The translations under genes were made by a program, and so were the position numbers. Below the pieces are notes generated by a model. It saw only the letters and a list, made by a program, of their open reading frames with translations, was not told the DNA's origin and searched no databases. 64,000 bases of DNA, from positions 1,488,716 through 1,552,715 of the forward strand of contig MVDH01000001.1 in assembly GCA_003056245.1 (NCBI GenBank), given 5' to 3'. Below, piece by piece: positions 38,134 through 58,389 of this stretch. The stretch's first letter is position 1. Each line of letters begins with the position of its first letter. The DNA comes from Cellvibrio sp. 79 (GTDB lineage: Bacteria > Pseudomonadota > Gammaproteobacteria > Pseudomonadales > Cellvibrionaceae).

Positions 38134-38236
38134 GTGAGGAGGATTATTTATTTTAAAACCATATGAGGCATGGATGCCGATTTGAGCCCACAGGGAAGTG
38201 TTTACGGCGTGTTTTAAAATAAATAATTCTCCTCGC
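38134..38236 (+). repeat. Hairpin element with conserved core, copy 1
   Basis: 26-bp arms at 38134-38159 and 38211-38236 are complementary except at two positions, both G-T pairs on the plus strand. The 51-bp centre holds a small hairpin, GGCATGGATGCC (38167-38178), and ACAGGGAAGTGTTTACGGC (38190-38208). The centre matches the element at 58265-58370, while the arms are unrelated to that copy's arms. Confidence 0.85.
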
Positions 38237-38286
38237 GCCGGAGTGCAAAACCAGTAAAAATTTAAAATCGAGATGAGGATACAGCC

Positions 38287-39213
38287 ATGTTTGCTGAATA
38301 CAGTACCTCGGAGTTGTTATCGATCTTCGCAATGCAAGGCGTGGCGGGGTTGATTTTATTTTCAGTGTTTGTGCTTATGGCCCTGGGGCTCGCCATTATT
38401 TTCGGCCAGATGGGCGTAATCAATATGGCGCACGGCGAATTTATGATTCTCGGTGCGTACGTGACTTATTTAACCTCGCAAGTGTTCTCAACCTACTTGC
38501 CTGAATTATTCAGCATCTACTTTATTCTAGCGATGATACTCGCCTTTATCGTCGCTGCTGCGCTCGGCGCGCTCGTCGAGTGGGGCATGATCAGGCATTT
38601 ATACAATCGCCCATTGGACACATTACTCGCAACCTGGGGCTTGAGCTTAATTCTGCAACAACTGTATCGCACCGTATTTGGCGCGCGCGAAGTGGGTGTG
38701 ACTTTACCGGATTGGTTAATGGGTTCTTATCAATTAACCGATTCAATTGAATTACCCGTCAATGGTTTATTTGTAATGACCCTCGCTATTGGAATTTCAC
38801 TTGCAGTTGCGATTTTAATGTATCGCTCGCGTTGGGGCACGCAAGTGCGCGCCGTAGTGCAGAACCGTGCGATGGCGGGTGCAGTGGGAATTAATACTGC
38901 AAAAGTAGATCGCATTACTTTCGCGTTGGGTTGCGGAATCGCCGGAGTCGCGGGTAGCGCATTTACCATGATCGGTTCAACCGGACCAACATCCGGCCAA
39001 CTTTATATTGTGGATACGTTCCTGGTCGTTGTGTTCGGCGGTGCATCCAGTTTGCTCGGCACAATTGCTTCAGCGTTCACCATTTCACAAGCGCAATCGA
39101 CGATGGAATTTTTTATGAGTGGTTCCATGTCCAAAGTGCTCACGCTCTTATTCGTGGTGTTTATCCTGATGTTGCGCCCGCAAGGTTTATTCACCTTGAA
39201 AGTGCGTCGTTAA
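38287..39213 (+). CDS. Amide/urea ABC transporter permease (UrtB-like, short form)
   Basis: First inner-membrane permease of the importer, 308 residues. It belongs to the branched-chain amino acid/urea permease family: LGLAIIFGQMGVINMAHGEFMILGAYVTY, LYNRPLDTLLATWGLSLILQQL, and AVVQNRAMAGAVGINTAKVDRITFALGCGIAGVAG. It lacks the ~250-residue periplasmic N-terminal region of the UrtB encoded at 54974. Eight or so membrane segments are visible. It is separated from the binding-protein gene by 212 bp of structured DNA. Confidence 0.88.
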   Translation: MFAEYSTSELLSIFAMQGVAGLILFSVFVLMALGLAIIFGQMGVINMAHGEFMILGAYVTYLTSQVFSTYLPELFSIYFILAMILAFIVAAALGALVEWGMIRHLYNRPLDTLLATWGLSLILQQLYRTVFGAREVGVTLPDWLMGSYQLTDSIELPVNGLFVMTLAIGISLAVAILMYRSRWGTQVRAVVQNRAMAGAVGINTAKVDRITFALGCGIAGVAGSAFTMIGSTGPTSGQLYIVDTFLVVVFGGASSLLGTIASAFTISQAQSTMEFFMSGSMSKVLTLLFVVFILMLRPQGLFTLKVRR

Positions 39214-39228
39214 GAGGAGTAACTGATT

Positions 39229-40443
39229 ATGTCGTATCAACGTTTTAGTGCACTCTTTCCGAAAAAAGAAATGATGGGTTTCATCGTGCTGGCAATAATC
39301 CTTGCTGTGGTGCTGCCGCTCTCACTGGATATTTTTCGCCTTAACCTCGTCGGTAAATATTTAACCTACGCGTTTGTCGCTGTAGGTTTGGTGTTGTGTT
39401 GGGGTTACGGTGGCATTTTAAGTTTAGGGCAGGGTGTATTTTTTGGATTGGGCGGCTACGCCATGGCGATGTTTTTAAAACTGGAAGCCTCTGATCCAGA
39501 AAGCACAAAAATCCAATCTACGCCCGGCATTCCCGATTTTATGGATTGGAACCAGCTCACTGAATTGCCCTTTTTCTGGGAACCCTTCCACAGCTTCGGT
39601 TTTACTATCGCCGCGATCATTTTATTGCCTTGCATCTTTGGTTACATCGTGGGTGTTGCTATGTTCAAGCGTCGTGTTGGCGGTGTTTATTTTGCGATCA
39701 TTACGCAAGCACTTGCAGCAATCCTCACGATATTAATTATTGGCCAGCAAGGTTATACCGGCGGTGTTAATGGTATGACCGATCTGCGCACGCTACATGG
39801 CTACGATATTCGCACCGATAGCGCAAAATATTTATTCTATTTTGTTTGTGTGTTCATGCTGTTTGTATGTTTGTTTGTTGCGCAGTTTATTCGTAAAAGT
39901 AAATTGGGTCGCTTGCTCGTCGCCATGCGCGATAAAGAAGACCGCGTACGCTTTTCCGGTTACGACGTTGCCAACTTTAAAATCTTTGTGTTCTGCATTG
40001 GCGGTGTGTTTGCTGCAATCGGCGGCGCGATGTTTACCTTGCAGGTGGGATTTATGTCACCAACGTTAGTGGGAATTGTACCTTCGATTGAAATGGTAAT
40101 TTTCTGTGCCGTGGGTGGCCGCCTTTCAATCATCGGCGCGGTATACGGTGCATTAATTGTTAACGCCGCAAAAACATCCTTCTCGGAAAGTTTTCCTGAA
40201 TTATGGTTGTTCGCGATGGGTGGATTATTTATCGCTGTGGTGATGGCATTTCCCAACGGTTTGGCAGGTTTGTATAACACCTATGCTGCACCTAAAGTGG
40301 ATGCGTTCTTTGCAAAACTTTTTACTAAAAAACCGGCAGTAGCCACAACAGCACCTCCGCCGGCGATAACTCCTTCTGTAAGCAAACCCGTTGTGACCAA
40401 AACTGAAACCCCGGTTATTCCACAAGGAGCCATCCATGAGTAG
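39229..40443 (+). CDS. Amide/urea ABC transporter permease (UrtC-like)
   Basis: Second permease, 404 residues, UrtC type: LVLCWGYGGILSLGQGVFFGLGGYAMAMFLK, VAMFKRRVGGVYFAIITQALAAILTILI, GGVNGMTDL and LVAMRDKEDRVRFSGYDVANFKIFVF. A Pro/Thr-rich cytoplasmic tail (~365-404: KPAVATTAPPPAITPSVSKPVV) is an unusual extension and is also present, with a different sequence, in the paralogue at 53523. GAGGAG precedes the start. Its stop overlaps the next gene by 8 bp, indicating coupled translation. Confidence 0.88.
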   Translation: MSYQRFSALFPKKEMMGFIVLAIILAVVLPLSLDIFRLNLVGKYLTYAFVAVGLVLCWGYGGILSLGQGVFFGLGGYAMAMFLKLEASDPESTKIQSTPGIPDFMDWNQLTELPFFWEPFHSFGFTIAAIILLPCIFGYIVGVAMFKRRVGGVYFAIITQALAAILTILIIGQQGYTGGVNGMTDLRTLHGYDIRTDSAKYLFYFVCVFMLFVCLFVAQFIRKSKLGRLLVAMRDKEDRVRFSGYDVANFKIFVFCIGGVFAAIGGAMFTLQVGFMSPTLVGIVPSIEMVIFCAVGGRLSIIGAVYGALIVNAAKTSFSESFPELWLFAMGGLFIAVVMAFPNGLAGLYNTYAAPKVDAFFAKLFTKKPAVATTAPPPAITPSVSKPVVTKTETPVIPQGAIHE

Positions 40444-41182
40444 CAATACAGATTTTGTGCTTGCTGTTGAAGGGCTCACGGTTTCCTTTGACGGTTTCAA
40501 GGCGGTAAATGATTTAACCTTCTATGTGGATGAAAATGAAATCCGCGTAATTATCGGACCCAATGGTGCGGGTAAAACGACAGTGCTGGATTTGATTTGC
40601 GGGCGCACTAAAGCCACCGATGGCTCAATCAAATTCCGCAACCGTGAATTGACAAAATTGCGCGAACACGAAATTGTAAAAGCCGGTGTGGGCAGGAAGT
40701 TTCAGAATCCCTCTATTTACGGTGATCTCACCGTATTTGAAAACCTGGAAATTTCCTTTCCGCGCGGCCGTTCGGTATTTGGTGCACTGGCATTCAAGCG
40801 CGATGAGGAAGTGATTAGCAAAGTGCATGAAGTTGCCAATATGATTTTCCTGGGTGATCAACTGGATCGACAAGCCGAGTTACTTAGTCACGGGCAAAAG
40901 CAATGGTTGGAAATTGGCATGTTATTAATGCAAGACCCGGATCTGCTAATGCTCGATGAGCCGGTTGCAGGCATGTCCGTGGGCGAGCGCCAGCAAACAG
41001 CGGAATTGTTGCGCAGCATTATTAAAGATCGCTCCGTGATTGTGATTGAACACGATATGCAATTCGTTGCACAAATTGCTGACAAGGTAACGGTATTGCA
41101 TCAAGGGAAAATTCTCGCCGAAGGTTCAGTCGATAAAGTGAAAAATGATCCTAAAGTCATTGAAGTCTATTTAGGCCACTAA
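40436..41182 (+). CDS. Amide/urea ABC transporter ATP-binding protein (UrtD-like)
   Basis: First ATPase of the importer, 248 residues. Walker A GPNGAGKTTVLDLICG, signature LSHGQKQWLEIGMLLMQDP (the SHGQ form is typical of UrtD), Walker B LLMLDEPVAGM and switch His in VIVIEHDMQFVAQIAD. The C-terminus ends NDPKVIEVYLGH, as in UrtD. ATG lies inside the end of the UrtC-like gene, with AAGGAGCC just upstream. The paralogue is at 52711. Confidence 0.9.
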   Translation: MSSNTDFVLAVEGLTVSFDGFKAVNDLTFYVDENEIRVIIGPNGAGKTTVLDLICGRTKATDGSIKFRNRELTKLREHEIVKAGVGRKFQNPSIYGDLTVFENLEISFPRGRSVFGALAFKRDEEVISKVHEVANMIFLGDQLDRQAELLSHGQKQWLEIGMLLMQDPDLLMLDEPVAGMSVGERQQTAELLRSIIKDRSVIVIEHDMQFVAQIADKVTVLHQGKILAEGSVDKVKNDPKVIEVYLGH

Positions 41183-41202
41183 ATACTTATGAGGAATTAA
41201 TT

Positions 41203-41892
41203 ATGTTAGCAGTATCTGATTACCGCGTAAGTTATGGCCAAAGCGAAGTGCTGCACGGGTTAAATTTTGAAGTGAAGCCGCGCGAAATTGTGGCGGTAAT
41301 GGGCCGCAATGGCATGGGTAAAACTACGTTGATGAAATCATTAATGGGTGTTATTCCCAGCTCCGGCGGTAGCGTAAAACTGGATGGCAAAGAAGTTAGC
41401 GAGTTAAAAAGTTTCCAGCGTGTTGCTAACGGCTTTGGTTTTGTGCCGCAAGGGCGGATGATTTTTTCCAGCATGACAGTGAAAGAAAATATTGAAACCG
41501 GATTAACGACCACTAAAAAACGTTCAGTACCAAAAGAGCTTTACGATATGTTTCCGGTACTGTTGGAAATGCGTAGCCGTCGCGGAGGAAATTTATCGGG
41601 TGGCCAGCAACAACAATTAGCTATCGCGCGTGCATTAGCGAGTGACCCTAAGTTGTTATTCCTGGATGAACCTACGGAAGGAATCCAGCCATCGATTATT
41701 CGGGAAATGGGGCGCACCTTAAAAGCCATTCGCGATCAGCGCGGGCTTTCAATTGTGGTTTCCGAGCAGGTATTAAGTTTTGCGCTGGATATTGCGGATC
41801 GAATCCTGGTTATTGAAAAAGGCCAGATTGTGCATGAAGAATTACGTGAGACGGTAAACGAAGCTAAAGTCGCTTCCTATTTATCGGTGTGA
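41203..41892 (+). CDS. Amide/urea ABC transporter ATP-binding protein (UrtE-like)
   Basis: Second ATPase, 229 residues. Walker A GRNGMGKTTLMKSLMG, signature LSGGQQQQLAIARALASDP, Walker B LLFLDEPTEGIQPS and SEQVLSFALDIADRILVIEKG (Gln in place of the switch-region spacing of its paralogue). It is the last transporter gene. TGAGGAATT precedes the ATG. The final codons (LSV-stop) are the first unit of a 14-bp tandem repeat running into the 3' region. Confidence 0.9.
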   Translation: MLAVSDYRVSYGQSEVLHGLNFEVKPREIVAVMGRNGMGKTTLMKSLMGVIPSSGGSVKLDGKEVSELKSFQRVANGFGFVPQGRMIFSSMTVKENIETGLTTTKKRSVPKELYDMFPVLLEMRSRRGGNLSGGQQQQLAIARALASDPKLLFLDEPTEGIQPSIIREMGRTLKAIRDQRGLSIVVSEQVLSFALDIADRILVIEKGQIVHEELRETVNEAKVASYLSV

Positions 41893-41949
41893 GTTTATCG
41901 GTGTGAGTTTATTGGTGTGAGTTTATTGGTGTGAGTCTATCGGTGTAAT
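41880..41949 (+). repeat. 14-bp tandem repeat starting in the urtE-like stop region
   Basis: Five consecutive 14-bp units with consensus TTTATYGGTGTGAG (41880, 41894, 41908, 41922, 41936; the last is degenerate). The first unit contains the last codons and stop of the upstream gene. Confidence 0.9.
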
Positions 41950-42019
41950 TTTTTACAATGAATTTTTTAATGATTTAATTTTTACAATTTAGTTTTTTGT
42001 AAATTACCTTTGGATGATA

Positions 42020-42043
42020 CTTCAGCTTCAGCTTCAGCTTCAG
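42020..42043 (+). repeat. CTTCAG hexamer repeat (4 units)
   Basis: Four exact tandem CTTCAG units lie immediately before the terminator of the amide transporter operon. Confidence 0.9.
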
Positions 42044-42083
42044 CCAGCTTTCGCTAAGTCTCGGGCGATCGCTGGCTTTTTTT
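42042..42083 (+). terminator. Intrinsic terminator of the amide/urea transporter operon
   Basis: AGCCAGC pairs with GCTGGCT around a loop that can itself pair (TTTCGC with GCGAT), followed by seven Ts. It lies about 150 bp after the UrtE-like gene. Confidence 0.8.
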
Positions 42084-42126
42084 CCTCCGCGTTTTAAATA
42101 ATAAATTAATTCAATCCCATCATTGT

Positions 42127-42459
42127 TTAATCATTCCTATCCGGCGGTGGTTCGCGCCCATCTCGCCCACCTTCGGGCGGCTCCGGCATATTATCGGGCT
42201 TGCACGCCAGTGTTGTTGTTTCTCCGCTACGTGGTGGCAAGCTGCAAGTGCCATTCACTAATTCATCATTGCGGCCAGCAAAACTACAGGGATCATTTTC
42301 TGCCAAACCTTTGCACGCGAGCAGGGCTTCTTCCGGTGGACCAAAACGTTTTCCATCCCGCTCCGGGCGCTGGTTTTCAGCGGCATATACTGGTTGTAAA
42401 AATATATTCAGAAAAATACCGGCAATGCCAGCGGCTTTCAATAGTTGGGTCGATGTCAT
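42127..42459 (-). CDS. Small secreted cysteine-containing protein
   Basis: A 110-residue exported protein of unknown function. The signal peptide (STQLLKAAGIAGIFLNIFLQPVYA-A) is followed by a compact core with four cysteines (LLACKG, DPCSFAG, NGTCSLPP, LACKP), likely two periplasmic disulfides. The tail is rich in Pro, Gly, Asp and Arg. Similar short Cys-containing proteins occur in aquatic gammaproteobacteria, but I know no function. It lies antisense between the amide transporter and formamidase genes. ATG 42459 follows GAGGTAAAC. Confidence 0.7.
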   Translation of the reverse strand: MTSTQLLKAAGIAGIFLNIFLQPVYAAENQRPERDGKRFGPPEEALLACKGLAENDPCSFAGRNDELVNGTCSLPPRSGETTTLACKPDNMPEPPEGGRDGREPPPDRND

Positions 42460-42604
42460 GTTTACCTCATGTAGATCACTTTATGTAAGTTACTCATGAG
42501 ATAAATCAAAATGGTATTGGTTCAGCGGCATCAACGTGTATCACAGTCTTTGCACAATTGATTTAACCGGTTTGTTTATCCGGATATCGTTTTGTCTATG
42601 GGGT

Positions 42605-42640
42605 AAATGACGTAGATGCGCGCGCTATTTGTCGTATTGT
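42605..42640 (+). promoter_or_regulatory. fmd box 2, upstream of formamidase
   Basis: AAATGACGTAG, ten bases, TATTTGTCGTATTGT: identical in layout to 36571-36606, with 11/11 and 12/15 matching bases in the two conserved parts. It lies 74-109 bp before fmdA. Confidence 0.55.
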
Positions 42641-42713
42641 GGCGAGTGGTCCTGCACCAGATACTGACCCTGTTCCGAGACGATTTTGTCCAACCCACAC
42701 CAGGAGTCAAACC

Positions 42714-43943
42714 ATGGCTGAAACGATTATCAAAATAGATTTAAAAAAAACGCCCTACGAAAATGAAAATATCCACAATCGCTGGCATCCGGATATTCCC
42801 ATGGCGGCGACGGTAAAACCTGGTGCGGATTTTATTATTGAGTGTTATGACTGGACTGGCGGACAAATTGAAAACAATGACAGCGCCGATGATGTGCGCG
42901 ATGTAGATTTGTCGCAAGTGCATTTTCTTTCCGGTCCTGTTGGCGTAGAAGGTGCGGAGCCTGGTGATTTATTAGTGGTGGATATTCTTGACATCGGCGC
43001 ATTCCAGGAAAGCTTATGGGGCTTCAATGGATTTTTCTCGAAACAAAATGGCGGCGGGTTTTTAACAGAGCATTTTCCGGAAGCGCAAAAATCCATTTGG
43101 GATTTTAACGGCATGTTTACCAAATCCCGCCATATACCCAATGTAGAATTCGCGGGTTTAATCCATCCCGGATTAATTGGTTGTTTGCCCTCCAAAGAAA
43201 TGTTGCTGGAGTGGAATAAACGCGAAAAAGAACTTTACGATACGGAGCCTGATCGCGTTCCGGCATTAGCAACGTTGCCTTACGCCGATACCGCGCATAT
43301 GGGTAAATTAAGTGGTGATGCTGCCAAAGCTGCCGCCGCCGAAGGTGCGCGTACTGTACCGCCGCGTGAGCATGGCGGTAACTGTGATATTAAAGATTTA
43401 TCGCGCGGTTCAAAAATTTATTTCCCGGTGTATGTAAAAGGTGGTGGGCTTTCTGTGGGGGATTTGCACTTTAGCCAGGGTGATGGCGAAATTACCTTTT
43501 GCGGTGCGATTGAAATGGCGGGCTGGATTCACTTGCGTGTGAATTTAATTAAAGACGGCATGGCGAAATACGCGATTAAAAATCCTATCTTCAAGCCAAG
43601 CCCGATCGCTCCGAAATACGATGACTATTTAATTTTCGAAGGCATTTCAGTGGATGAATATGGTGAGCAACATTATCTGGATGTTCACGTTGCTTATCGC
43701 CAGGCCTGTTTAAATGCGATTAACTACATGACCAAATTCGGTTATTCCAAAGCGCAAGCTTATTCCATCCTTGGATGTGCGCCGGTGCAAGGTCATATTT
43801 CCGGCGTTGTGGATATTCCTAACGCATGTGCGACTTTGTGGTTGCCAACAGATATTTTTGATTTTGATATCAATCCATCAGCAGAAGGGCCGACTAAGAA
43901 AGTTACGCCGGGAATGGATGTACCGTTGTCGAAGGATAAATAA
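42714..43943 (+). CDS. fmdA: Formamidase
   Basis: Hydrolyses formamide to formate and ammonia in the cytoplasm. At 409 residues it matches FmdA of methylotrophs (acetamidase/formamidase family). Seen: NRWHPDIPMAATVKPGADFIIECYDWTGGQI near the start, LSGPVGVEGAEPGDLLVVDILDI, EFAGLIHPGLIGCLPS, PPREHGGNCDIKDLSRGSKIYFPVYVKGGGLSVGDLHFSQGDGEI and YSILGCAPVQGHISGVVDIPNACATLWLP. ATG 42714 has CAGGAG upstream; the earlier in-frame start at 42639 would run through the promoter. fmdB follows after a CT-rich repeat. Confidence 0.95.
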   Translation: MAETIIKIDLKKTPYENENIHNRWHPDIPMAATVKPGADFIIECYDWTGGQIENNDSADDVRDVDLSQVHFLSGPVGVEGAEPGDLLVVDILDIGAFQESLWGFNGFFSKQNGGGFLTEHFPEAQKSIWDFNGMFTKSRHIPNVEFAGLIHPGLIGCLPSKEMLLEWNKREKELYDTEPDRVPALATLPYADTAHMGKLSGDAAKAAAAEGARTVPPREHGGNCDIKDLSRGSKIYFPVYVKGGGLSVGDLHFSQGDGEITFCGAIEMAGWIHLRVNLIKDGMAKYAIKNPIFKPSPIAPKYDDYLIFEGISVDEYGEQHYLDVHVAYRQACLNAINYMTKFGYSKAQAYSILGCAPVQGHISGVVDIPNACATLWLPTDIFDFDINPSAEGPTKKVTPGMDVPLSKDK

Positions 43944-43947
43944 AAGC

Positions 43948-44029
43948 AACCCCTCCCAGCCTCCCCCTTTTCAAGGGGGAGGAGCTTTACTCCCTCCCGC
44001 TTTTGAAGGGGAGGGTTGGGGAGGGGTTT
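43948..44029 (+). repeat. CT-rich palindromic repeat, copy 1
   Basis: Runs of C/T then G/A form nested hairpins: AACCCCTCCC at the left pairs with GGGAGGGGTT-type sequence at the right, and CCTCCCCCTT pairs with AAGGGGGAGG inside. It lies between fmdA and fmdB. Related copies are at 54796, 59156 and 62931. Confidence 0.85.
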
Positions 44030-44074
44030 GTTCCGGTGAGGTTAAAGAATTTCAGTTAAAAAGCGGAGTTGCTT

Positions 44075-44443
44075 ATGCCTGTTTACGACTACAAATGCGC
44101 AGACCATGGCCTGTTTTATGAATTGGCGGCAATGGAAGATTCCAGCAAACCCATGGCATGTCCGACGTGTGCAACATTGTGCGCGCGAGTGATTATGCTG
44201 GCACCGGAATTTCTGGATATGAAAAAAGAAAATAGGGCTGCGCATCAACGCAATGAAACAGCGATGAATACGCCAGTTTTTTCTACGCCCGAATATCGTG
44301 CTGAACAAAAAGCGCGACGCGAACACAAACATGGTAAAGGTTGCGGTTGCAGTGATAAACCTATTCGTAAATCCAACCTGATGTACACCGCTGGCGGGAA
44401 TAAAATGTTTCCTTCCATGCGCCCCTGGATGATTAGCCACTAA
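44075..44443 (+). CDS. fmdB: FmdB-family zinc-ribbon protein
   Basis: A 122-residue protein with the FmdB N-terminal zinc ribbon (MPVYDYKCADHGLFYELA, then ACPTCATLCARV). A charged middle and a second Cys pair (KGCGCSDKP) follow. FmdB is a putative regulator linked to formamidase operons in methylotrophs, though its mechanism is unproven. One ribbon position is His/Gly where many members have a second Cys pair (CADHG). ATG 44075 is supported by GCGGAG upstream. It is likely co-transcribed with fmdA despite the intervening repeat. Confidence 0.85.
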   Translation: MPVYDYKCADHGLFYELAAMEDSSKPMACPTCATLCARVIMLAPEFLDMKKENRAAHQRNETAMNTPVFSTPEYRAEQKARREHKHGKGCGCSDKPIRKSNLMYTAGGNKMFPSMRPWMISH

Positions 44444-44602
44444 CTAATACCTACTTTGCGAGACATTAGCGTAAGTTGGGATGATAAGAATGCGCCAGAA
44501 AAAATCAGTAGGGTATGAGTGTGGACTGCGCTATGAACTACAGTGAAAGGCTTTGCATTAAAGGTTGGTATAGTTTTATTGATCGCACTTAAAAAAATAA
44601 TA

Positions 44603-45214
44603 TTAACGGTTTGACGGGCGTAATGTGTCGATATAATCGTTTAATGTACCAAATAAATCAGTAAGCAATTGCGGTGCTTGCATGCATTTGGCTACACCGA
44701 TAATTCCCTGGTAACTCGCCATGATAAACATTGCAATTTTGCCCGGGTTAATGTCCTGGCGAACCAGGCCTTGCTGTTGGCCTTGTTCAAGTGAGGTGAC
44801 GATTGAGTCATAGATGCTTTCCATAATATTTTCCAACCGCTCATGGAAACCTTTGTCGATTGATGCCATTTCCTGGTTTAAATTGTTGAGCGGGCAACCT
44901 TTGAAACAAACTTCATTTTTATAAAGGTCTGCTTTCCATAAAAATAATTGTTGTATTGCAGTTAATGGATTGGGGTATTTGCTGGAAAATTCAGCCCAGT
45001 TTTCCTTTACATGTTCTAATAAAATTTCATCGACAACGGCATAACCCAGTGCCAGTTTATTGGGAAAATAATGGTAGAGCGCGCCCTTGGCTAACTGGGT
45101 TTTTTGCAATATCGCTTCAATGCGCATTCCCTGATAGCCATTTTCATAGATTTCCTCCTGAGCAGCTTCAAGAATTCGAGTGCGAGTATGTTCGGGATTG
45201 CGTTCGATAGACAT
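44603..45214 (-). CDS. TetR-family transcriptional regulator
   Basis: A 203-residue repressor. The N-terminal helix-turn-helix reads RTRILEAAQEEIYENGYQGMRIEAILQKTQLAKGALYHYFPNKLALGYAV. The C-terminal part is an effector domain with a CFKGCPLNNLNQEMA segment (as in TetR_C-type regulators near oxidative or electrophile stress genes). The start at ATG 45214 is chosen although the frame continues to 45361, because the longer version would run through the palindromic operator at 45292. The target could be itself or the divergent VIT-family gene. Confidence 0.88.
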   Translation of the reverse strand: MSIERNPEHTRTRILEAAQEEIYENGYQGMRIEAILQKTQLAKGALYHYFPNKLALGYAVVDEILLEHVKENWAEFSSKYPNPLTAIQQLFLWKADLYKNEVCFKGCPLNNLNQEMASIDKGFHERLENIMESIYDSIVTSLEQGQQQGLVRQDINPGKIAMFIMASYQGIIGVAKCMQAPQLLTDLFGTLNDYIDTLRPSNR

Positions 45215-45291
45215 GGGATTCTCGTGAACCAGTAAATGATACGGCGATAAATTATTATGAATAGTCGAATAGGTTGTATTGGTTGTTTTAA

Positions 45292-45309
45292 ACCGACCAA
45301 ATGGTCGGT
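45292..45309. promoter_or_regulatory. Palindromic operator, probably for the TetR-family regulator
   Basis: ACCGACCAAATGGTCGGT: 8-bp perfect half-sites with a two-base centre, in the 233-bp divergent gap between the TetR gene and the VIT gene. The GACCGACC/GGTCGGTC type is common for TetR-family operators. Confidence 0.7.
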
Positions 45310-45447
45310 CATCATTAAATAGTAAGGTTATTTGACTTGTCAATAACAGCGCATTGCACAATGATTTGTTTCACCACACGGCAACGTTGCATATAACCGT
45401 ATTGGTTATATCATTTACCAAAAGCAAATATATAAGGGGCAAGTACC

Positions 45448-46143: not shown

Positions 46144-46146
46144 TCG

Positions 46147-48678: not shown

Positions 48679-48710
48679 TTTATTGATGCGTTAAGTAATC
48701 AATGAATTAA

Positions 48711-48741: not shown

Positions 48742-48747
48742 AACGGA

Positions 48748-49632: not shown

Positions 49633-49669
49633 TCTCAACTAAACTGCTGTTAATTGCGGAGAAGAGATT

Positions 49670-50476: not shown

Positions 50477-50577
50477 TTTGTCGTTCTGCGCGGTTTTGGC
50501 GCATTTTAATAATTCTTGGCTACACTCAATGATTATTCGCAAGCAATTGCTAGTGAAATGTTATTGAGAGTAATCTG

Positions 50578-51834
50578 ATGAAAAAGATTCTGGTTGTTGA
50601 AGACAGTGAAATGGTGATGAAGGTATTGCGCCATTTGGTTCAATCCTCAGCCCTGGCTTATGAAGCCGTTTATGCCAATAGCCTTGCGCAGGCGACGAAT
50701 GCATATGAACAAAACCCGCAAGAGTTTTTTGCGGCGCTGGTAGATTTAAATCTACCTGATGCACCTAATGGCGAAGTGGTGGACTTCACCCTCAGCAAAA
50801 AAATTCCCACTATTGTATTAACTGGCAGCTACGACGAAAAACGCCGCGAACAATTATTCAACAAAGGCATCGTCGATTACGTTACCAAAGAAGGTCGCTA
50901 CGCTTACAGCAAAGCGATTGGCATGATCAATCGTTTGGAAAAAAACCAGCATATTAAAGTGTTGGTCGTTGATGATTCCGATATGTCGCGCAAGCATGTT
51001 GCCAATTTATTCAAACGGCATTTGTTTCAAGTATTGGAAGCTGTCGATGGCGTTGATGCGATTAAAGTCTTGCTGGAAAATCCGGATATTAAATTGGTAT
51101 TCACTGATTACAATATGCCAAAAATGGATGGCTTTGAATTGGTGCGTAACCTGCGCTACAAATACGACAAAACAGATTTGATTATGATTGGTGTTTCCGG
51201 CGAAAGCAGTGAGGCGCTGTCCGCTAAATTTATCAAACATGGCGCCAATGATTTTTTGCGTAAACCTTTTCATCCGGAAGAGTTTTATTGTCGCATTATC
51301 CACAACATAGAATCGCTCGAATTAATAGAGCAAATTACGTATAACGCGCAGCGCGATCATTTGACCGGGCTTTATCATCGCTCTTATTTTTTTAACGCGG
51401 CCCGCGAGTTGTATCGCCAAGCGGTAGAGAAGGCGTCACCCTTGTCGCTTGGGGTTATTAATATCGATAATTTTAGTCATATGAATGAGCAGCACGGTAA
51501 TGCTTGGGGCGACGTTGCCCTGAAATGCATCGCAGCCAGTTTGCAAAACATGCTGGGGCGTTTTTTGCTGGCGCGCGCCGATAGCGATGACTTTTTTTTA
51601 TTGATGCCTGGGTTGGATCACGAAAAAGCGGCATCTTTTCTAGCAAAAGTAAAACAATTATTAGCTGCTGAAAAGTACGTTATCAATAATACTGAAACCC
51701 ATTTTTATTTTAGTGCCGGTATCAGTGATCAGTTGCACCAAAGCCTGGACCAGCAACTGGCACAAGCCACTCTACATTTGCATCGAGCAAAAGAAGCTGG
51801 TGGGAATATGATTGTGGATGATGGGGAAGAATAG
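50578..51834 (+). CDS. Response regulator with two receivers and a degenerate GGDEF domain
   Basis: A 418-residue cytoplasmic protein. Receiver 1 (~1-115) has VVEDSEMV, phospho-Asp in ALVDLNLPD and VDYVTKEG. Receiver 2 (~125-245) has VVDDSDMSR, VFTDYNMPKMDGF and FLRKPFHPEE. The GGDEF-like domain (~255-415) begins RDHLTGLYHRSYFF, but its active-site motif is SDDFF (~335-339) instead of GGDEF and the metal Asp region is NIDNFSHMN. It is therefore unlikely to make c-di-GMP and may bind nucleotide or act by protein contact. The order is like PleD, but with lost catalysis. Confidence 0.88.
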   Translation: MKKILVVEDSEMVMKVLRHLVQSSALAYEAVYANSLAQATNAYEQNPQEFFAALVDLNLPDAPNGEVVDFTLSKKIPTIVLTGSYDEKRREQLFNKGIVDYVTKEGRYAYSKAIGMINRLEKNQHIKVLVVDDSDMSRKHVANLFKRHLFQVLEAVDGVDAIKVLLENPDIKLVFTDYNMPKMDGFELVRNLRYKYDKTDLIMIGVSGESSEALSAKFIKHGANDFLRKPFHPEEFYCRIIHNIESLELIEQITYNAQRDHLTGLYHRSYFFNAARELYRQAVEKASPLSLGVINIDNFSHMNEQHGNAWGDVALKCIAASLQNMLGRFLLARADSDDFFLLMPGLDHEKAASFLAKVKQLLAAEKYVINNTETHFYFSAGISDQLHQSLDQQLAQATLHLHRAKEAGGNMIVDDGEE

Positions 51835-51933
51835 CGTTTGAGTTGTTACCAGCTTGATACTCCCAGGGTTACTATTGGAAATACAATTCGGCATAACATG
51901 TTCAATTTGTGAGCTGGCTAGTCCGACCGATAA

Positions 51934-51961
51934 TTTGTGCAGTTTTCATAACCTGCACAAA
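51934..51961 (-). terminator. Hairpin after urtE
   Basis: TTTGTGCAG and CTGCACAAA form a 9-bp stem with a 10-base loop directly beyond the urtE stop codon. No good T-run follows, so termination may be weak or factor-assisted. Confidence 0.45.
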
Positions 51962-51968
51962 TACACTG

Positions 51969-52664
51969 TTACACACTCAGATATCGTTGAACCAAACCAT
52001 CATTTAACTCAGCAATCGGCCCGGTTGCCACCACACTACCTTTTTCCATGATAAAAAAATCATCGGCAACACGGCGTGCGAATGGAAGCTTTTGCTCGAC
52101 AAGTAAAACGGTCAAGCCCAATTCTCGATTGAGTTTACGAATGACTTCACCAATATCGCGCACAACATTAGGTTGGATACCTTCGGTGGGTTCATCGAGA
52201 ATTAATAATTTTGGATCTAATACCAATGCGCGTCCAATGGCTAGTTGCTGTTGCTGGCCACCCGATAAGTCGCCACCGCGCCTGTGTTTCATTTCTTTCA
52301 GGACAGGAAACAATTCGTAGATCAATCCGGGAATTGAGCGCAATTTGTCCTTGCGTGCACCGAGAGAAATTTTTAAATTTTCTTCCACGGTAAGCAGAGG
52401 GAAAATTTCGCGGCCTTGCGGCACAAAGCCGATACCACCACGAGCACGATTTTCGGTGGAGAGCTTGTTGATCTCATAGCCATTTAAATGAATGGCACCA
52501 TCGCGCACTGGCAATAAGCCGGTAATACATTTGAGCAGGGTGGTTTTGCCGACACCATTACGGCCAATCAAACAACCACAAGTCCCCTGTTTCAGGTTGA
52601 GCGATAAATCCCACAAAATATGGCTTTGGCCGTAATATTGATTGATGTTTTTAATTTCCAGCAT
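51969..52664 (-). CDS. urtE: Urea ABC transporter ATP-binding protein UrtE
   Basis: Second ATPase of the canonical urea importer, 231 residues. Walker A GRNGVGKTTLLKCITG, signature LSGGQQQQLAIGRALVLDP, Walker B LLILDEPTEGIQPNVV and LLVEQKLPFARRVADDFFIMEKG. The end reads LNDGLVQRYLSV, as usual for UrtE. It is the last gene of urtABCDE, 46 bp after urtD, and is clearly diverged from the paralogue at 41203. Confidence 0.93.
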   Translation of the reverse strand: MLEIKNINQYYGQSHILWDLSLNLKQGTCGCLIGRNGVGKTTLLKCITGLLPVRDGAIHLNGYEINKLSTENRARGGIGFVPQGREIFPLLTVEENLKISLGARKDKLRSIPGLIYELFPVLKEMKHRRGGDLSGGQQQQLAIGRALVLDPKLLILDEPTEGIQPNVVRDIGEVIRKLNRELGLTVLLVEQKLPFARRVADDFFIMEKGSVVATGPIAELNDGLVQRYLSV

Positions 52665-52710
52665 TTTCTATTTACTCATTCTGCAATCGGTAGTGACCAA
52701 CCAATATTTG

Positions 52711-53523
52711 TTATTCGCCCAGATAAACTTCGATAACTTTGGGATCGTTTTGCACTTGGTCCATAGTACCTTCGGTTAATACCGAACCCTGATGCAACAC
52801 TGTTACCTTGCGTGCAATGGAGCGCACAAATTTCATATCGTGCTCCACCACAATGACCGAATGTTCACCAGCGAGGGACAATAACAATTCAGCTGTTTTT
52901 TCGGTTTCTTCACCGGTCATACCGGCGACGGGTTCATCAACCAACAATACGCGCGGGTTCTGCATTAATAGCATGCCGATTTCCAGCCATTGTTTTTGGC
53001 CATGAGAAAGTGAACCGGCATTTTTGTATCTGTGTTCAGCCAGACCGATTTGTATCAACACTTCATCGATACGATATTTTTGTGCGCTATTTAGTTGTTG
53101 GGACAGTGTCCACCACACACGTTTATCGGCAGCAGTTGCGAGCTCCAGGTTTTCGTAAACACTCAATGCTTCAAAAATGGTGGGCTTCTGGAATTTACGG
53201 CCAATACCACCGCGTGCGATCTGGTGCTCGGATAATTCCAGCAAATTAATTTGCTGGCCGAAATACACGCTGCCTTCATCCGGTTTGGTTTTTCCGGTAA
53301 TTACATCCATCATCGTTGTTTTACCGGCGCCGTTGGGGCCGATGATGCAACGCAGCTCACCTTCATCGATATACAAGTTCAAATTGTTCAATGCACGGAA
53401 ACCATCAAAACTAACGGTTACACCTTCGACATATAAAATAGTGCGATGAGTAGTATCCAATGGTGCGCCAAAGTTGGGATCTTTTTGTCCCATTGAATAG
53501 CGTTTATGCGAAAAAATATTCAT
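52711..53523 (-). CDS. urtD: Urea ABC transporter ATP-binding protein UrtD
   Basis: First ATPase, 270 residues. It has a ~25-residue N-terminal extension before ILYVEGVTVSFDGFRALNNL. Walker A GPNGAGKTTMMDVITG, signature LSHGQKQWLEIGMLLMQNP, Walker B VLLVDEPVAGMTGEE and VIVVEHDMKFVRSIA. Ends NDPKVIEVYLGE. Its ATG overlaps the urtC stop codon by one base, so translation is coupled. Confidence 0.93.
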   Translation of the reverse strand: MNIFSHKRYSMGQKDPNFGAPLDTTHRTILYVEGVTVSFDGFRALNNLNLYIDEGELRCIIGPNGAGKTTMMDVITGKTKPDEGSVYFGQQINLLELSEHQIARGGIGRKFQKPTIFEALSVYENLELATAADKRVWWTLSQQLNSAQKYRIDEVLIQIGLAEHRYKNAGSLSHGQKQWLEIGMLLMQNPRVLLVDEPVAGMTGEETEKTAELLLSLAGEHSVIVVEHDMKFVRSIARKVTVLHQGSVLTEGTMDQVQNDPKVIEVYLGE

Positions 53524-54755
53524 TACACAGGCTCCTTAACGGCAGCGGCGATGACTGGGTTCTCAGCAGAAATAGAATTTTCTGTAGATTTATTAACGGC
53601 GAATTTTATCGGCGCGTCTGTGGTGGGAACTGGATTTTCAGGCGGCGTGTTACTAGAGCTATTTTTACTTGCCACTTTTTTAGTGCGATTAAATAAACCT
53701 ACCAAGCCTTTCGGCAATACCAGGGTCACGATCACAAACAGCGCGCCTAACGCAAACAACCATGTTTCTGGTGAGTAAGACGTGAACACCGTTTTGCCGT
53801 AGTTCACGGTGAAGGCGCCGACAATTGCACCAAACAATGTGCCGCGTCCACCGGTTGCAACCCAAACAACTAATTCAATTGAATTAAGGGGAGAGAATTC
53901 ACCGGGATTAATAATTCCCACTTGCGGAACATAGAGCGCACCGGCGATGCCAGCGAGAATCGCAGAGAAAACAAATAACCATAATTTGTAGGATTCCACT
54001 TTGTAGCCGCAAAAACGTGTGCGTGTTTCTGCGTCGCGAATAGAGACAATCACTTTTCCCATGCGTGAAGTCACAATATAGCGGCAGGCGATGTAGGCGA
54101 TTATCAACATAAACCCGGACGCTAAAAATAATGAGATACGTGTTCCGCTTGCGGCGATAGGAAAACCTAAAATATCTTTAAAATCGGTTAATCCATTATT
54201 TCCACCAAAACCCATTTCGTTGCGGAAAAAGGCGAGTAGTAATGCGTAAGTTAATGCCTGGGTGATAATTGAAAAATACACGCCGGTCACGCGGGAACGG
54301 AACGCGAGCCAACCGAAAATAAATGCAAGAATTCCAGGCACCACAATAATCATCAACAAGGCAAACCAGAACATATCAAAGCCCTGCCAATACCAGGGCA
54401 ATTCTTTCCAGTTCAGGAACACCATAAAGTCTGGCAGGATGGGATCACCATATTGGCCGCGCGGGCCAATTTGTCGCATTAAATACATACCCATCGCATA
54501 ACCGCCCAACGCAAAAAAAGCGCCGTGGCCGAGTGACAATATTCCGCAATAACCCCAAATTAAATCTATTGATAATGCGAGCAGGGCATAACATAAAAAT
54601 TTCCCCAGTAGCGTCACAGTGAACGTAGAAATATGCAGTGCCGATGTTTCCGGTACCAGCAGGTTGCAAATAGGGACCAGTATCATCGTGACCAATACCA
54701 GCCCCAGCACAATCATGCCGCCGCGATCACTGAGTAATAAACGTTGGGTTAACAT
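53523..54755 (-). CDS. urtC: Urea ABC transporter permease UrtC
   Basis: Second permease, 410 residues. Conserved parts: ALSIDLIWGYCGILSLGHGAFFALGGYAMGMYLM, FRSRVTGVYFSIITQALTYALLLAF, GGNNGLTDFKDILGF and SIRDAETRTRFCGYKVESYKLW. A cytoplasmic Ser/Asn/Pro-rich tail (~355-410) follows the last helix. It is preceded by a 218-bp gap holding a CT-rich repeat that splits urtB from urtC, unusual inside this normally tight operon. Confidence 0.93.
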   Translation of the reverse strand: MLTQRLLLSDRGGMIVLGLVLVTMILVPICNLLVPETSALHISTFTVTLLGKFLCYALLALSIDLIWGYCGILSLGHGAFFALGGYAMGMYLMRQIGPRGQYGDPILPDFMVFLNWKELPWYWQGFDMFWFALLMIIVVPGILAFIFGWLAFRSRVTGVYFSIITQALTYALLLAFFRNEMGFGGNNGLTDFKDILGFPIAASGTRISLFLASGFMLIIAYIACRYIVTSRMGKVIVSIRDAETRTRFCGYKVESYKLWLFVFSAILAGIAGALYVPQVGIINPGEFSPLNSIELVVWVATGGRGTLFGAIVGAFTVNYGKTVFTSYSPETWLFALGALFVIVTLVLPKGLVGLFNRTKKVASKNSSSNTPPENPVPTTDAPIKFAVNKSTENSISAENPVIAAAVKEPV

Positions 54756-54795
54756 TTGTTTCTCTCTTTAAAATAAAATTTTTGCAATGCCGTGA

Positions 54796-54975
54796 CCCCC
54801 CTCCCGGCCTCCCCCTTAAAAAGGGGGAGGAGTTATCGCCCTGTTCCAGCTCTACTCATTTCAAAGGGAAGGAATACACTGTTCAAGTTCTAACGGGGCG
54901 AAATGTTTCGTACAAGCTCTGCCCCTTTTCACGGGGCGCGTTTCAGTTCCTCCTCCTTGGTTAGGAGGGGGTTTT
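54796..54975. repeat. CT-rich palindromic repeat, copy 2 (composite)
   Basis: A first hairpin (CCTCCCCCTT with AAGGGGGAGG, 54796-54832), a middle GCCCC/GGGGC hairpin near 54918-54936, and TCCTCCTCC with GGAGGGGG near 54950-54974. It fills the urtB-urtC gap and touches the urtB stop. Confidence 0.75.
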
Positions 54976-56668
54976 AATCCGCAGCCGCTCTGCCTTTCTG
55001 CGGAAATATTCCCTTCGGCCGCTTCTGGATAAACAAAATCAACAACACCAATACCAATACTTTCGCGAGTACCGCACCGGCATAAGGCTCTAAAAATTTA
55101 TTGATAATGCCGAGTCCCATCGCGCCAACTAAAGTACCCCATAAATTACCCACACCACCGAATACCACCACCATAAATGAGTCGATAATGTAGGCTTGTC
55201 CAAGGTTGGGACCAACATTGGTCAGTTGTGAAAGCGCAACACCGGCAATACCGGCAATACCGGAACCTAAACCAAAAGTCATTGCATCCACCCAGTTTGC
55301 ACGCACACCTACAGCGCGAGCCATTGCGCGATTTTGCGAAACCGCGCGAACTTTTAAACCGAGCGTGGTTTTTTTCAAAATCACCAATAGCGCAAAAAAC
55401 ACCAGCAAACCAAAAATCAAAATATATAAACGGTTATACGTGATAGAGAAAACCGGATTAATTTGCAGTGAACCGCTCATCCATACTGGTAATTCAACAG
55501 CGCGATTTAATGGTGAAAAAATACTGCGGGCTGCCTGTTGCAAGATCAGGCTGATACCAAAAGTGGCGAGTAATGTTTCCAATGGGCGTCCGTATAAAAA
55601 ACGAATTACGCCACGTTCAATCGCAATACCCACCAGACCGGCAACAATAAATGCAGCGGGAATTGCAATCGCCAGGCTGTATGCAATTTGATTGGGGAAA
55701 ACTTGTTGCACAACCCAGGTGACGTAGGCGCCGATCATCATTAATTCGCCATGGGCCATATTAATAACGCCCATTACACCGAAGGTGATTGATAGGCCAA
55801 TCGCTGAGAGTAGTAGCACTGAGCCCAGACTCAGACCGAAGAAAATATTTTCTGCAAAACGATACTTTGCGATGCTACTGTCAATTGCTTTGATAGCAAG
55901 TTGTGCGTGGATTTTTACTTTTTCATCCGTGTCATTGCTGGCAACTTCGGAAAGCGCAGTGCGAACTTCCTGTTGCAGACTATCTTTCAAAACTTCAATA
56001 GCACCAAGGCGCAATTGTTGGTCATTACTGTGTAAGTTAAAAAGTGCAACAGCGCTGTCGATAGCTTTGCGCACACCGTCATTGGCTTCTGATTTTTGCA
56101 ACTCCTGTAACAAGGATATTGAATCTTCATCGATGCCATCGGCAATCATGCGATTGACGGCATCCAAGCGGATGGTGGCATCCTGGTGAGTTAAATTCAG
56201 TTGCGCCAACAGTGTACGTAATTGGCTGCGCATACTGTTATTAATAGGAACTCGTTTTAATTCTTCAGTATCGCCTATAATTTTTTCGCCGCTAATGGCA
56301 TTGGTGTAATTACCTGCTTCATCCGCGATGGCAACCAGCGGATTTTCATCTTTGGTGGCGTAAAGTGTGCCTTGTTGTAATGCGCCAATGATTTTGGCTA
56401 CACGCTCATCCTTCAATGCAGCTAATTTTTTTGCCGTTTGCGCGCGCGCGGGCAGGCTTCCTTGAGTGAGTTCTTTTACCAGCGAATCAAATTCTGGTTG
56501 GGAGTTTGCTTCGTTACTGACATTTGCAGAGATGGTTTCAGCTGATGTGGTACCTGCTTCTGCTGAGGTCTCCGCTTCTTGCGAAAAAACCGTAGCAGAA
56601 AAGCAAAATGATAAAACCACTATCACATGCAGCAGCCAATGCCCCGACGGTTTTAAAACGTTTCGCAT
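54974..56668 (-). CDS. urtB: Urea ABC transporter permease UrtB (long form)
   Basis: First permease, 564 residues. A signal peptide and a ~250-residue periplasmic region with HEAT-like helices (FDSLVKELTQGSLPARAQTAKKLAAL, DATIRLDAVNRMIADG) come before the membrane domain, as in canonical UrtB. The permease part has SIGLSITFGVMGVINMAHGELMMIGAYVTWV, LYGRPLETLLATFGISLILQQA and SQNRAMARAVGVRANWVDAMTFGLGSGIAGIAG. It ends RPKGIFPQKGRAAAD. The N-terminal region is absent from the paralogue at 38287. Confidence 0.94.
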   Translation of the reverse strand: MRNVLKPSGHWLLHVIVVLSFCFSATVFSQEAETSAEAGTTSAETISANVSNEANSQPEFDSLVKELTQGSLPARAQTAKKLAALKDERVAKIIGALQQGTLYATKDENPLVAIADEAGNYTNAISGEKIIGDTEELKRVPINNSMRSQLRTLLAQLNLTHQDATIRLDAVNRMIADGIDEDSISLLQELQKSEANDGVRKAIDSAVALFNLHSNDQQLRLGAIEVLKDSLQQEVRTALSEVASNDTDEKVKIHAQLAIKAIDSSIAKYRFAENIFFGLSLGSVLLLSAIGLSITFGVMGVINMAHGELMMIGAYVTWVVQQVFPNQIAYSLAIAIPAAFIVAGLVGIAIERGVIRFLYGRPLETLLATFGISLILQQAARSIFSPLNRAVELPVWMSGSLQINPVFSITYNRLYILIFGLLVFFALLVILKKTTLGLKVRAVSQNRAMARAVGVRANWVDAMTFGLGSGIAGIAGVALSQLTNVGPNLGQAYIIDSFMVVVFGGVGNLWGTLVGAMGLGIINKFLEPYAGAVLAKVLVLVLLILFIQKRPKGIFPQKGRAAAD

Positions 56669-56720
56669 AATATTGTCTCGTTAACTTAAGTAAAAAGCAG
56701 TCAAAATATTTTTTGTTATA

Positions 56721-56752
56721 TTTCTTCCCGGCCATTAAGGTCCGGGAAGAAA
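56721..56752 (-). other. Intercistronic hairpin between urtA and urtB
   Basis: TTTCTTCCCGG and CCGGGAAGAAA form a perfect 11-bp stem with a 10-base loop just after the urtA stop. No T-run follows on the minus strand. Confidence 0.7.
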
Positions 56753-56767
56753 TTTATAGCGTAGAAA

Positions 56768-58063
56768 TTATTGCGCAGCTGCACCTAAACATTTTTTGGT
56801 TTTGGTGTTGTAGTTACCGCACTTCAATTTGATCCAGTCAGATTCCAGGTCTTTTGAACCTTCCAGATAATCAGACCATGCATCGCCTGGAACCAGGTTA
56901 TCGGTTTTTGAAACGGTAAGGAATTGGCCATCTTCCTGAATTTCACCAATCAATACTGGTTTAGTGATGTGATGGTTTGGCAACATTTTGCTTACACCAC
57001 CGGTCAGGTTCGGTGCTTCAATGCCGATGATTGCGTCAACTACTTTATCGGTGTCAGTTGTGCCTGCTTTTTGAACGGCTTTCACCCACATGTTGAAACC
57101 GATGTAGTGAGCTTCCATTGGATCGTTGGTTACGCGTTTTGGATTTTTGATGAACGCTTTCCATTGTTTGATAAATGCCGCGTTAGCCGCATTCTCTTCG
57201 CTCATGAAGTAATTCCATGCAGCGAGATGACCAACCAGTGGTTTGGTATCAATACCGGAAAGTTCTTCTTCGCCCACCGAGAAAGCGACAACCGGAATAT
57301 CTTCCGCGGTCACTTTTTGGTTGCCGAGTTCACGGTAGAACGGAACGTTAGCATCGCCATTGATGGTAGATACCACCGCGGTTTTTTTGCCGGCTGAACC
57401 AAAGCGTTTGATATCAGACACAATGTTTTGCCAATCGGAATGGCCGAAAGGTGTGTAATTGATCATGATGTCTTCTTGCTTAACGCCTTTTGCTTTTAAA
57501 TAGGCTTCCAGAATTTTGTTGGTGGTGCGTGGATAAACATAGTCAGTGCCTGCAAGTACCCAACGTTTTACTTTTACTTCATTCATCAGGTAATCAACAG
57601 CAGGAATTGCTTGTTGGTTTGGTGCAGCACCGGTGTAGAACACATTGCGTGAAGATTCTTCACCTTCATATTGCACTGGATAAAAAAGCACACCGTTTAA
57701 TTCTTCAATGACGGGCAATACCGATTTGCGCGATACAGAAGTCCAGCAACCAAAAATGGCAGCTACTTTATCTTTGGTTAACAACTCACGGGTTTTTTCC
57801 GCGAATAGTGGCCAGTTAGATGCGGGGTCAACGACAACGGCTTCTAATTTTTTACCAAGCAGACCGCCTTTTTTGTTTTGCTCTTCGATTAACATGAGCA
57901 TGGTATCTTTCAGCGTAGTTTCGGAAATCGCCATAGTGCCGGAAAGCGAGTGGAGCACACCGACTTTAATAGTGTCAGCGGCAGCAGCGCTGAACGAGGC
58001 GATGGTTAAGCCGCAGGCGATACCGAGTGCCCCGACATGTTTTGCTATCTTCTTCAGCTTCAT
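56768..58063 (-). CDS. urtA: Urea ABC transporter substrate-binding protein UrtA
   Basis: Periplasmic urea-binding protein of 431 residues. Signal peptide to ~29 (CGLTIASFSAAAA-DTIK). Canonical UrtA motifs: IKVGVLHSLSGTMAISETTLKDT, AAIFGCWTSVSRKSVLPVIEELNGVLFYPVQYEGEESSRNVFYTGAAPNQQAIPAVDYL and NYTPFGHSDWQNIV. The C-terminus has two Cys (LKCGNYNTKTKKCLG) that may form a disulfide. It heads urtABCDE. Its 326-bp upstream region contains the second hairpin element. Confidence 0.94.
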   Translation of the reverse strand: MKLKKIAKHVGALGIACGLTIASFSAAAADTIKVGVLHSLSGTMAISETTLKDTMLMLIEEQNKKGGLLGKKLEAVVVDPASNWPLFAEKTRELLTKDKVAAIFGCWTSVSRKSVLPVIEELNGVLFYPVQYEGEESSRNVFYTGAAPNQQAIPAVDYLMNEVKVKRWVLAGTDYVYPRTTNKILEAYLKAKGVKQEDIMINYTPFGHSDWQNIVSDIKRFGSAGKKTAVVSTINGDANVPFYRELGNQKVTAEDIPVVAFSVGEEELSGIDTKPLVGHLAAWNYFMSEENAANAAFIKQWKAFIKNPKRVTNDPMEAHYIGFNMWVKAVQKAGTTDTDKVVDAIIGIEAPNLTGGVSKMLPNHHITKPVLIGEIQEDGQFLTVSKTDNLVPGDAWSDYLEGSKDLESDWIKLKCGNYNTKTKKCLGAAAQ

Positions 58064-58389
58064 GGGTCTAGCTCCTAGATGGTTTTAATGACTCAGTGGT
58101 TTTTGTGTAGTGATGCTCATTGGTTGAGTGCTCACTTTTTCCGGTAACGCCATAACGCGAATCGTGGGTGACTGTGTTTCTTCCTTAATCACTGTTGATG
58201 TGTTCTATTCATCAATTGTGTTGTCACTCTTTATTTTAAAGTCGTTCTGTTTTACTCACATCAAGTGTTGTACCTGTAGGGATTGCCAGACTATCGGAGA
58301 CATGGATGTCGACGATAAGCCTACAGGGATGTATTTACGGCCTGTCTGGCAATCCCTACAGGTACAGCACGTTTTGTGGCACATTTAAA
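58064..58389. other. Region between gntR end and urtA start
   Basis: This 326-bp gap holds the hairpin element at 58265-58370 on its gntR side. The remaining ~200 AT-rich bases should contain the urtA promoter. No AATGACGTA box like those of the fmd genes is present, suggesting separate control of the two transporters. Confidence 0.45.
58265..58370 (+). repeat. Hairpin element with conserved core, copy 2
   Basis: 27-bp arms at 58265-58291 and 58344-58370 pair with a single T-G wobble on the plus strand. The 52-bp centre holds GACATGGATGTC (58299-58310) and ACAGGGATGTATTTACGGC (58323-58341), matching copy 1 (38134-38236) in order and spacing. It lies 20 bp beyond the gntR stop. Confidence 0.85.

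Follow-up and report, generated by a model that had tools for sequence, protein, structure and literature searches.

Two hairpin elements in a 64,000-nucleotide stretch of the Cellvibrio sp. 79 genome (contig MVDH01000001.1, positions 1,488,716 to 1,552,715 of the forward strand; hereafter the window) are copies of an interspersed gammaproteobacterial repeat family that is widespread and structurally constrained. Each copy has a conserved core with two small hairpins, H1 and H2, enclosed by two long arms that pair with each other. The best explanation we can offer is a mobile repeat whose RNA would bind the regulator CsrA and act as a decoy. We infer the binding, the transcription and the mode of movement from sequence, and we give this reading about an even chance. 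The parts of the two elements are as follows.

38134-38236, + strand: copy 1, in the urtA-urtB interval of a urea-transport operon
38134..38159, + strand: 5' arm of copy 1, 26 nt, pairing with 38211-38236
38160..38184, + strand: hairpin H1 of copy 1, hexaloop AUGGAU at 38170-38175, stem with tandem G.A
38186..38208, + strand: hairpin H2 of copy 1, GCC-CAC-[AGGGAA]-GUG-UUUAC bulge-GGC, loop at 38192-38197 (assigned partly from the family structure)
38211..38236, + strand: 3' arm of copy 1, 26 nt
58265-58370, + strand: copy 2, flanked by a second urtA and a regulator-like gene, both on the opposite strand
58265..58291, + strand: 5' arm of copy 2, 27 nt, pairing with 58344-58370
58292..58317, + strand: hairpin H1 of copy 2, hexaloop AUGGAU at 58302-58307, stem with tandem G.A
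58319..58341, + strand: hairpin H2 of copy 2, GCC-UAC-[AGGGAU]-GUA-UUUAC bulge-GGC, loop at 58325-58330
58344..58370, + strand: 3' arm of copy 2, 27 nt

An earlier note on this DNA had described the two elements at these positions and in the same orientation, and we confirmed this. Their shared core pattern matches twice in the window, with 0.00 matches expected from 100 shuffles. The spacing of 20-21 bases reported for the core is right as a start-to-start distance and wrong as a gap, since the gap from block to block is 13-14 bases. The self-pairing of the arms is borne out by RNA folding (z = -6.98 for copy 1 and -9.85 for copy 2; 0 of 200 shuffles equally stable). The statement that the arms are unrelated between copies is correct for the window pair, in which an ungapped comparison of the outer 27 bases of the 5' arms gives 33% identity. 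It fails within subfamily I of G012, another genome of the genus: there the mean identity of the arms is 53%, compared with 28% for shuffled arms, and that of the core is 80%.

We built a covariance model from 49 non-redundant members of fixed length, selected for at least 17 of 20 arm pairs; copy 2 is one of these seeds and copy 1 is not. The model recovers both window copies (92.8 and 80.2 bits). A search of the whole genome with the strict core pattern returned only the two window copies, and the covariance model finds at least 12 copies there. The pair is thus not alone in its genome, and the case in which the earlier note would have regarded the structure as coincidental, that of these two copies alone, does not hold. 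Copies were found by the model in 20 of the 21 genomes of the genus, including the genome of the window. In the 20 others the number ranges from 0 (G009) to at least 119 (G012), with at least 92 copies in G015; all these counts, drawn from up to 150 scored candidates per genome, are lower bounds, and one further copy was met in locus L344. The strict core pattern matched in 16 of the 96 genomes searched among relatives (own genome counted) and in at least 119 stretches of named genomes. Among the matches listed (80 of 119 stretches), the family members come from gammaproteobacteria as far as record names tell. The genera are Stenotrophomonas, Luteimonas, Marinobacter, Rheinheimera, Alishewanella, Pseudomonas, Halopseudomonas, Shewanella, Cellvibrio, and others. 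For further analysis we used a wide set of 134 elements that fit the family, out of 139 extracted; L058, L075, L081, L094, and L118 were excluded as chance matches. The elements are about 105-140 bp long.

The core folds as a three-way junction, in which P1 is formed by the arms, P2 is H1, and P3 is H2. P2 has about 10 bp, the loop AUGGAU in the seeds, and often a tandem G.A or a conserved U mismatch. P3 consists of GCC paired with GGC, the UUYAC bulge, a 3-bp stem, and the loop A-N-GGA-N. Among the 49 seeds, 93.8% of the cells are paired, compared with 60.6% after shuffling. The covariation score is 0.851; shuffles score 0.190 and slid pairings 0.126-0.152. Of the 36 pairs, 29 show a change on each side, which is no excess over shuffles (27.8). 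The arm part of the seed covariation is favored by the preselection of arms for pairing. Without preselection, in the 134 elements, the arms form 18.6 of 22 pairs within copies and 10.7 of 22 across copies, and 14 elements have fewer than 15 pairs.

When a stem undergoes a transition, one strand acquires a G-T pair and the other an A-C mismatch; an excess of G-T thus points to the folding strand. In the wide set the core-sense strand has a G-T to A-C ratio of 134:26 (120 of 134 elements). With longer arms it is 213:65 (111 of 134 elements), or 147:46 in 81 non-redundant elements. The earlier note had seen three such G-T positions in the window and had suggested that a folded form of RNA or single-stranded DNA matters; the same bias now extends to many species and supports the suggestion. 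Grouped by the direction of the flanking genes, the ratio in the wide set is 50:10 for elements with both genes co-directional and 64:14 for those with both genes opposed. Within a crudely called long open reading frame (ORF), elements show no clear bias (34:25 summed over such classes). G012 gives 100:29 overall (111 of 112 copies) and 35:12 where both genes run against the element. In the wide set the core-sense strand folds regardless of the direction of neighboring genes, and G012 agrees more weakly. Such a bias fits RNA and single-stranded DNA alike.

For the loops we surveyed 111 distinct G012 copies (from 121 matches in 99 loci) that had been found by the model and not by a loop pattern. 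The H2 loop is A-N-GGA-N in 110 copies and extended in one; the H1 loop is A-N-GGA-Y in 95 copies, AGGAN in 10, extended in five, and ATGAAT in one. Loop positions 1, 3, 4, and 5 are conserved as A, G, G, and A, in contrast to the two N positions and the stems, which vary. In G012 all four bases are met at the first N of each loop, although the seeds are limited to AUGGAU for H1 and A[AG]GGAN for H2. A C-G pair closes H1 in 110 of the 111 copies, and the H2 stems are UAC/GUA (83 copies), CCC/GGG (21), UCC/GGA (4), and CAC/GUG (3).

Paired hairpins with A-N-GGA-N loops are a feature of RNAs that bind CsrA or its relative RsmA. In PMC7652899, the CsrA consensus from in vitro selection (SELEX) is RUACARGGAUGU, and 44 of 55 ligands have six-base loops closed by AC/GU pairs. 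The RsmA/RsmN motif is ANGGAN in a hexaloop, including that of RsmZ, according to PMC3791407. The H2 hairpin of copy 2 fits the SELEX consensus at 11 of 12 positions. Since the loops keep A..GGA on a hairpin and the variable parts covary, the element looks like a target of the CsrA/RsmA type. Extended copies carry extra hairpins with CsrA-type loops, which give a third site and perhaps a fourth; one of them, in L018, is UAC-AUGGAU-GUA. We also observed a module of about 50 bases, with a hairpin of the CCCAC-ANGGAN-GUGGG type and a second hairpin, which lies within H1 in several copies and within H2 in one copy, L361. The copies bearing it are L304, L329, L361, and L315 in G012, L222/L223 in G016 and G007, and L184 in G014, as if the module were itself mobile.

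CsrA binding is the function that these sequences support best, and its chances appear roughly balanced. In the mechanism we propose, the core-sense strand of the element would be transcribed, and each of the two hairpins would bind one face of a CsrA/RsmA dimer. The copies would jointly serve as decoys for CsrA, or CsrA would serve the RNA of the element as a host factor. P1, the long stem, would keep the RNA folded and protected, and its sequence may drift by paired changes because only its pairing matters. The element would spread, often being found as divergent doublets, and it could flip in place, perhaps through recombination between its own inverted arms. The dispersed decoy role is less sure than the binding, and we put it forward tentatively. 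With similar reserve we suggest that a mobile family may spread CsrA/RsmA sites: every copy would be a portable double site, and genomes with about 100 copies would have a dispersed, evolvable sponge for a global regulator or host a selfish element that uses CsrA.

Several observations weigh against this explanation. In the wide set the elements have no uniform orientation relative to genes, and both neighbors of copy 2 lie on the strand opposite to it. Crude scans of 84 unpaired G012 copies revealed neither a sense-specific promoter-like signal nor a T-run beside the stem on either strand, i.e., no terminator tied to the element. The predicted minimum of copy 1 (-40.4 kcal/mol) shows neither H1 nor H2, and the family structure (-39.8 kcal/mol) lies within 0.6 kcal/mol of it. 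The H1 closing pair is G-C in L166/L207, which are from other genomes. One orthologous copy, L263, has two inserted hairpins whose loops lack A-N-GGA, the motifs being in adjacent stretches predicted as unpaired. The strand bias of G012 is weak in subfamily I (44:24), its value in subfamily II (56:5) rests partly on one inherited wobble, and it lacks significance for elements with both genes co-directional (16:10). On the supporting side, a gene of the CsrA family is found in 20 of the 21 genomes of the genus, the exception being an 85% complete assembly; co-occurrence with CsrA is uninformative because CsrA is near-universal in the genus.

The main rival is a mobile element of single-stranded DNA, similar to REP doublets or to the ends of IS200/IS605, in which a recombinase reads the two loops and the likeness to CsrA sites is coincidental. 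Its strand bias would be independent of gene orientation, as it is in the wide set. Inverted doublets, known for REP dimers (PMC3733652), also suit it. Copies less than 600 bp apart in 100 loci form 26 distinct pairs, of which 24 are divergent, none convergent, and two in the same direction; among the 112 extracted G012 copies the close pairs are 10 divergent, three convergent, and none in the same direction. Sharp ends, too, are seen in subfamily II of G012, where conserved sequence extends past the stem by about 19 bases at the 5' end (from 43 of 60 copies) and by 14 bases at the 3' end (from 46 of 60), and no further. Transposases speak against such an element. No element was found in flanks of up to 1.5 kb a side of 25 Y1 (REP/RAYT-type) transposase genes of the genus, nor beside four Y1 genes of a Stenotrophomonas maltophilia chromosome, which have other inverted repeats. 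Five of the 21 genomes have no Y1 match over the cut-off, and G015 with its numerous copies is among them. RAYT/TIRYT ends are thereby ruled out by adjacency (0 of 29 Y1 genes). Moreover, a single-stranded DNA element does not require a free N in otherwise fixed A-N-GGA-N loops, nor the repeated gain of such hairpins. We consider it unlikely, though a serious competitor to the CsrA explanation.

The spacers between the copies of doublets differ. In two Stenotrophomonas loci, L059 and L074, the spacers of divergent copies contain a GGGTCAGATCC repeat and a CGACACCTACC-type repeat, palindromes of other kinds, and form a mosaic of unrelated repeats. One Stenotrophomonas spacer palindrome resembles the GGGGTCAG repeat at the flanks of a Y1 transposase gene. 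Four copies make up a symmetric array at L128:5373-5925, two of them leftward and two rightward.

Position among genes, judged from crude longest-ORF calls, bears on another alternative: a REP-like hairpin that shields 3' ends of mRNAs or insulates convergent genes in either orientation. The copies are mostly intergenic (110 of 112 in G012, where short ORFs over elements were discarded, and 97 of 134 in the wide set), and in G012 the gene on the 3' side points at the element in 83 of 109 cases (p = 4e-8). At several conserved sites, including that between urtA and urtB, species with the same flanks have the core in opposite orientations, as a hairpin working either way would permit. The trend for the 3'-side gene is weak in the wide set, with 54 vs 39 where both neighbors were called and no ORF overlapped, and 57 vs 40 where one neighbor was missing. 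A generic stem would keep neither the A-N-GGA-N loops nor a preference for G-T on one strand whatever the gene direction, and it is further disfavored by the lack of a T-run beside the stem. We find this alternative improbable. A cis-regulatory 5' leader was ruled out: co-directional genes run against the element in 33 cases and with it in 25 in the wide set, and copy 2 is antisense to its neighbors.

The history of the arms can be followed at orthologous sites. The element is often still present at such sites within the genus, and its arms differ by paired changes. In 17 comparisons, which are not independent, 442 pair positions include 320 unchanged and 71 changed on both sides with pairing kept. 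The rest are 16 one-sided changes to or from G-T, 23 one-sided changes that break pairing, and 12 two-sided changes that break it. Compensated changes thus make up 71 of the 122 changed arm pairs, 39 of them transitions and 32 transversions. Selection alone would favor transitions via G-T, whereas 32 of 71 are transversions; this leaves room for later copying of one arm to the other by template switching.

Copying at the time of insertion is a different matter. The earlier note had proposed that the arms were made by copying one flank across when the element was inserted, and the unrelated arms of the window pair look just so. This is now largely refuted and, in our view, very improbable: arms of one subfamily share ancestry, and they continue to co-change at orthologous sites after insertion. 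The one clean empty site, L234, has neither arm. The arms of 26 G012 copies, searched within G012, gave 42 matches, all to their own elements: 26 to the 5' arm and 16 to the 3' arm. This search sees near-exact matches of about 22 bases or longer, and 10 own 3' arms were below the threshold. Within these limits the arms were not seen as fragments of genes elsewhere, and an origin from the target is not supported, with both arms absent from the empty site of L230/L234.

We also compared orthologous loci with and without the element, as the earlier note had proposed for defining the ends. Out of nine sites aligned with a relative, six lack the element and any recognizable arm. Of these six, one has a clean junction, L230/L234, which may be a deletion and is all that bears on target-site duplication. 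Among the other sites, L253 may retain traces of the two arms, other repeats occupy L259, and L263 has a variant element. A separate case is L146, in which two near-identical copies stand in tandem; in this subfamily (also L034 and L122) the 5' arm does not pair with the 3' arm and looks replaced.

The genes next to the two window copies are as follows.

36818..38074, + strand: urtA, binding protein of a urea ABC transporter, 5' of copy 1 (TIGR03407 above cut-off)
38287..39213, + strand: urtB, permease, 3' of copy 1 (TIGR03409 above cut-off)
56768..58063, - strand: second urtA, with copy 2 on the other strand upstream of it (TIGR03407 above cut-off)
58390..59103, - strand: regulator-like gene, its 3' end facing that of copy 2 (the top family matches are to two regulators, each below its cut-off); we take it to be of the GntR type

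The window contains two urea clusters, urtABC (36818-40443) and a cluster of the second urtA, the regulator-like gene, and urea carboxylase (56768-62907), with one element in each. In G007 the urtB region with its element occurs twice (G007:C1:5049 and G007:C1:4679348; L219 and L221) in DNA that is 97-99.6% identical, and the urtB near the contig start holds stop codons.

If the CsrA explanation is true, some bacterial genomes hold dozens of scattered decoys for a master regulator. A dispersed CsrA-type repeat, with up to at least 119 copies per genome and in many gammaproteobacterial genera, would change the view of CsrA titration and its evolution. It would also suggest a function for orphan RNAs of the TwoAYGGAY type and make a 2014 proposal of CsrA binding directly testable. 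The fast drift of arms that preserves pairing also offers a natural setting in which compensatory selection can be cleanly told apart from palindrome correction by template switching.

Several known systems share some features with the family. Six core strings were not found in the papers searched, and among the papers listed for CsrA with repeats and for Cellvibrio with palindromic repeats, none concerned the family as judged by title and abstract start, which is no proof of absence. Integron attC sites have conserved outer core sites and a variable centre; they were set aside, as the layout here is the reverse, with a conserved centre and variable arms. ERIC, NEMIS, and other bacterial miniature inverted-repeat transposable elements are likewise repeats of 70-300 bp able to fold as RNA, but they have terminal inverted repeats of 15-30 bp recognised by transposases (PMC3733652). 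Here the arms vary between copies, as the identities of 33% and 53% given above indicate, and it is the centre that is conserved. REP elements with RAYT/TIRYT are also intergenic palindromes in many copies that form inverted dimers, as the family does (same source). They differ in core and structure, their stems being 5-13 bp long, and no element of our family adjoins the Y1 genes examined.

Known CsrA decoys are a few dedicated small RNAs per genome, and those of the CsrB/RsmZ type have their own promoter and terminator. CsrB, CsrC, and RsmX/Y/Z similarly carry several GGA hairpins and bind CsrA. In contrast to these dedicated RNAs, the family is interspersed, with two sites per copy and as many as at least 119 copies per genome.

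The nearest family is the TwoAYGGAY RNA (Rfam RF01731). It was listed from human gut, gammaproteobacteria, and Clostridiales (PMC2864571), and a 2014 paper suggested that it binds CsrA (PMC4333381); the available parts of these two papers do not mention dispersed copies. The window copies score 31.2 and 31.5 bits with its model, below the 43-bit cut-off, and 26 other loci (6 + 20) gave no gathering match. A search of the own genome with this model listed copy 2 and not copy 1. The H1 loop AUGGAU fits AYGGAY; the H2 loops of the window, of the form AGGGAN, fit A-N-GGA-N and not AYGGAY. H2 here also has a shorter stem and a 3' UUYAC bulge. The likeness consists in two GGA hairpins (of the AYGGAY type in RF01731), a weakly conserved outer stem, and a tandem G.A; here the arms vary while their pairing is kept, and both window copies have the tandem G.A. 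We file the family as a relative of TwoAYGGAY, not as a member of it, that would act like a CsrA decoy.

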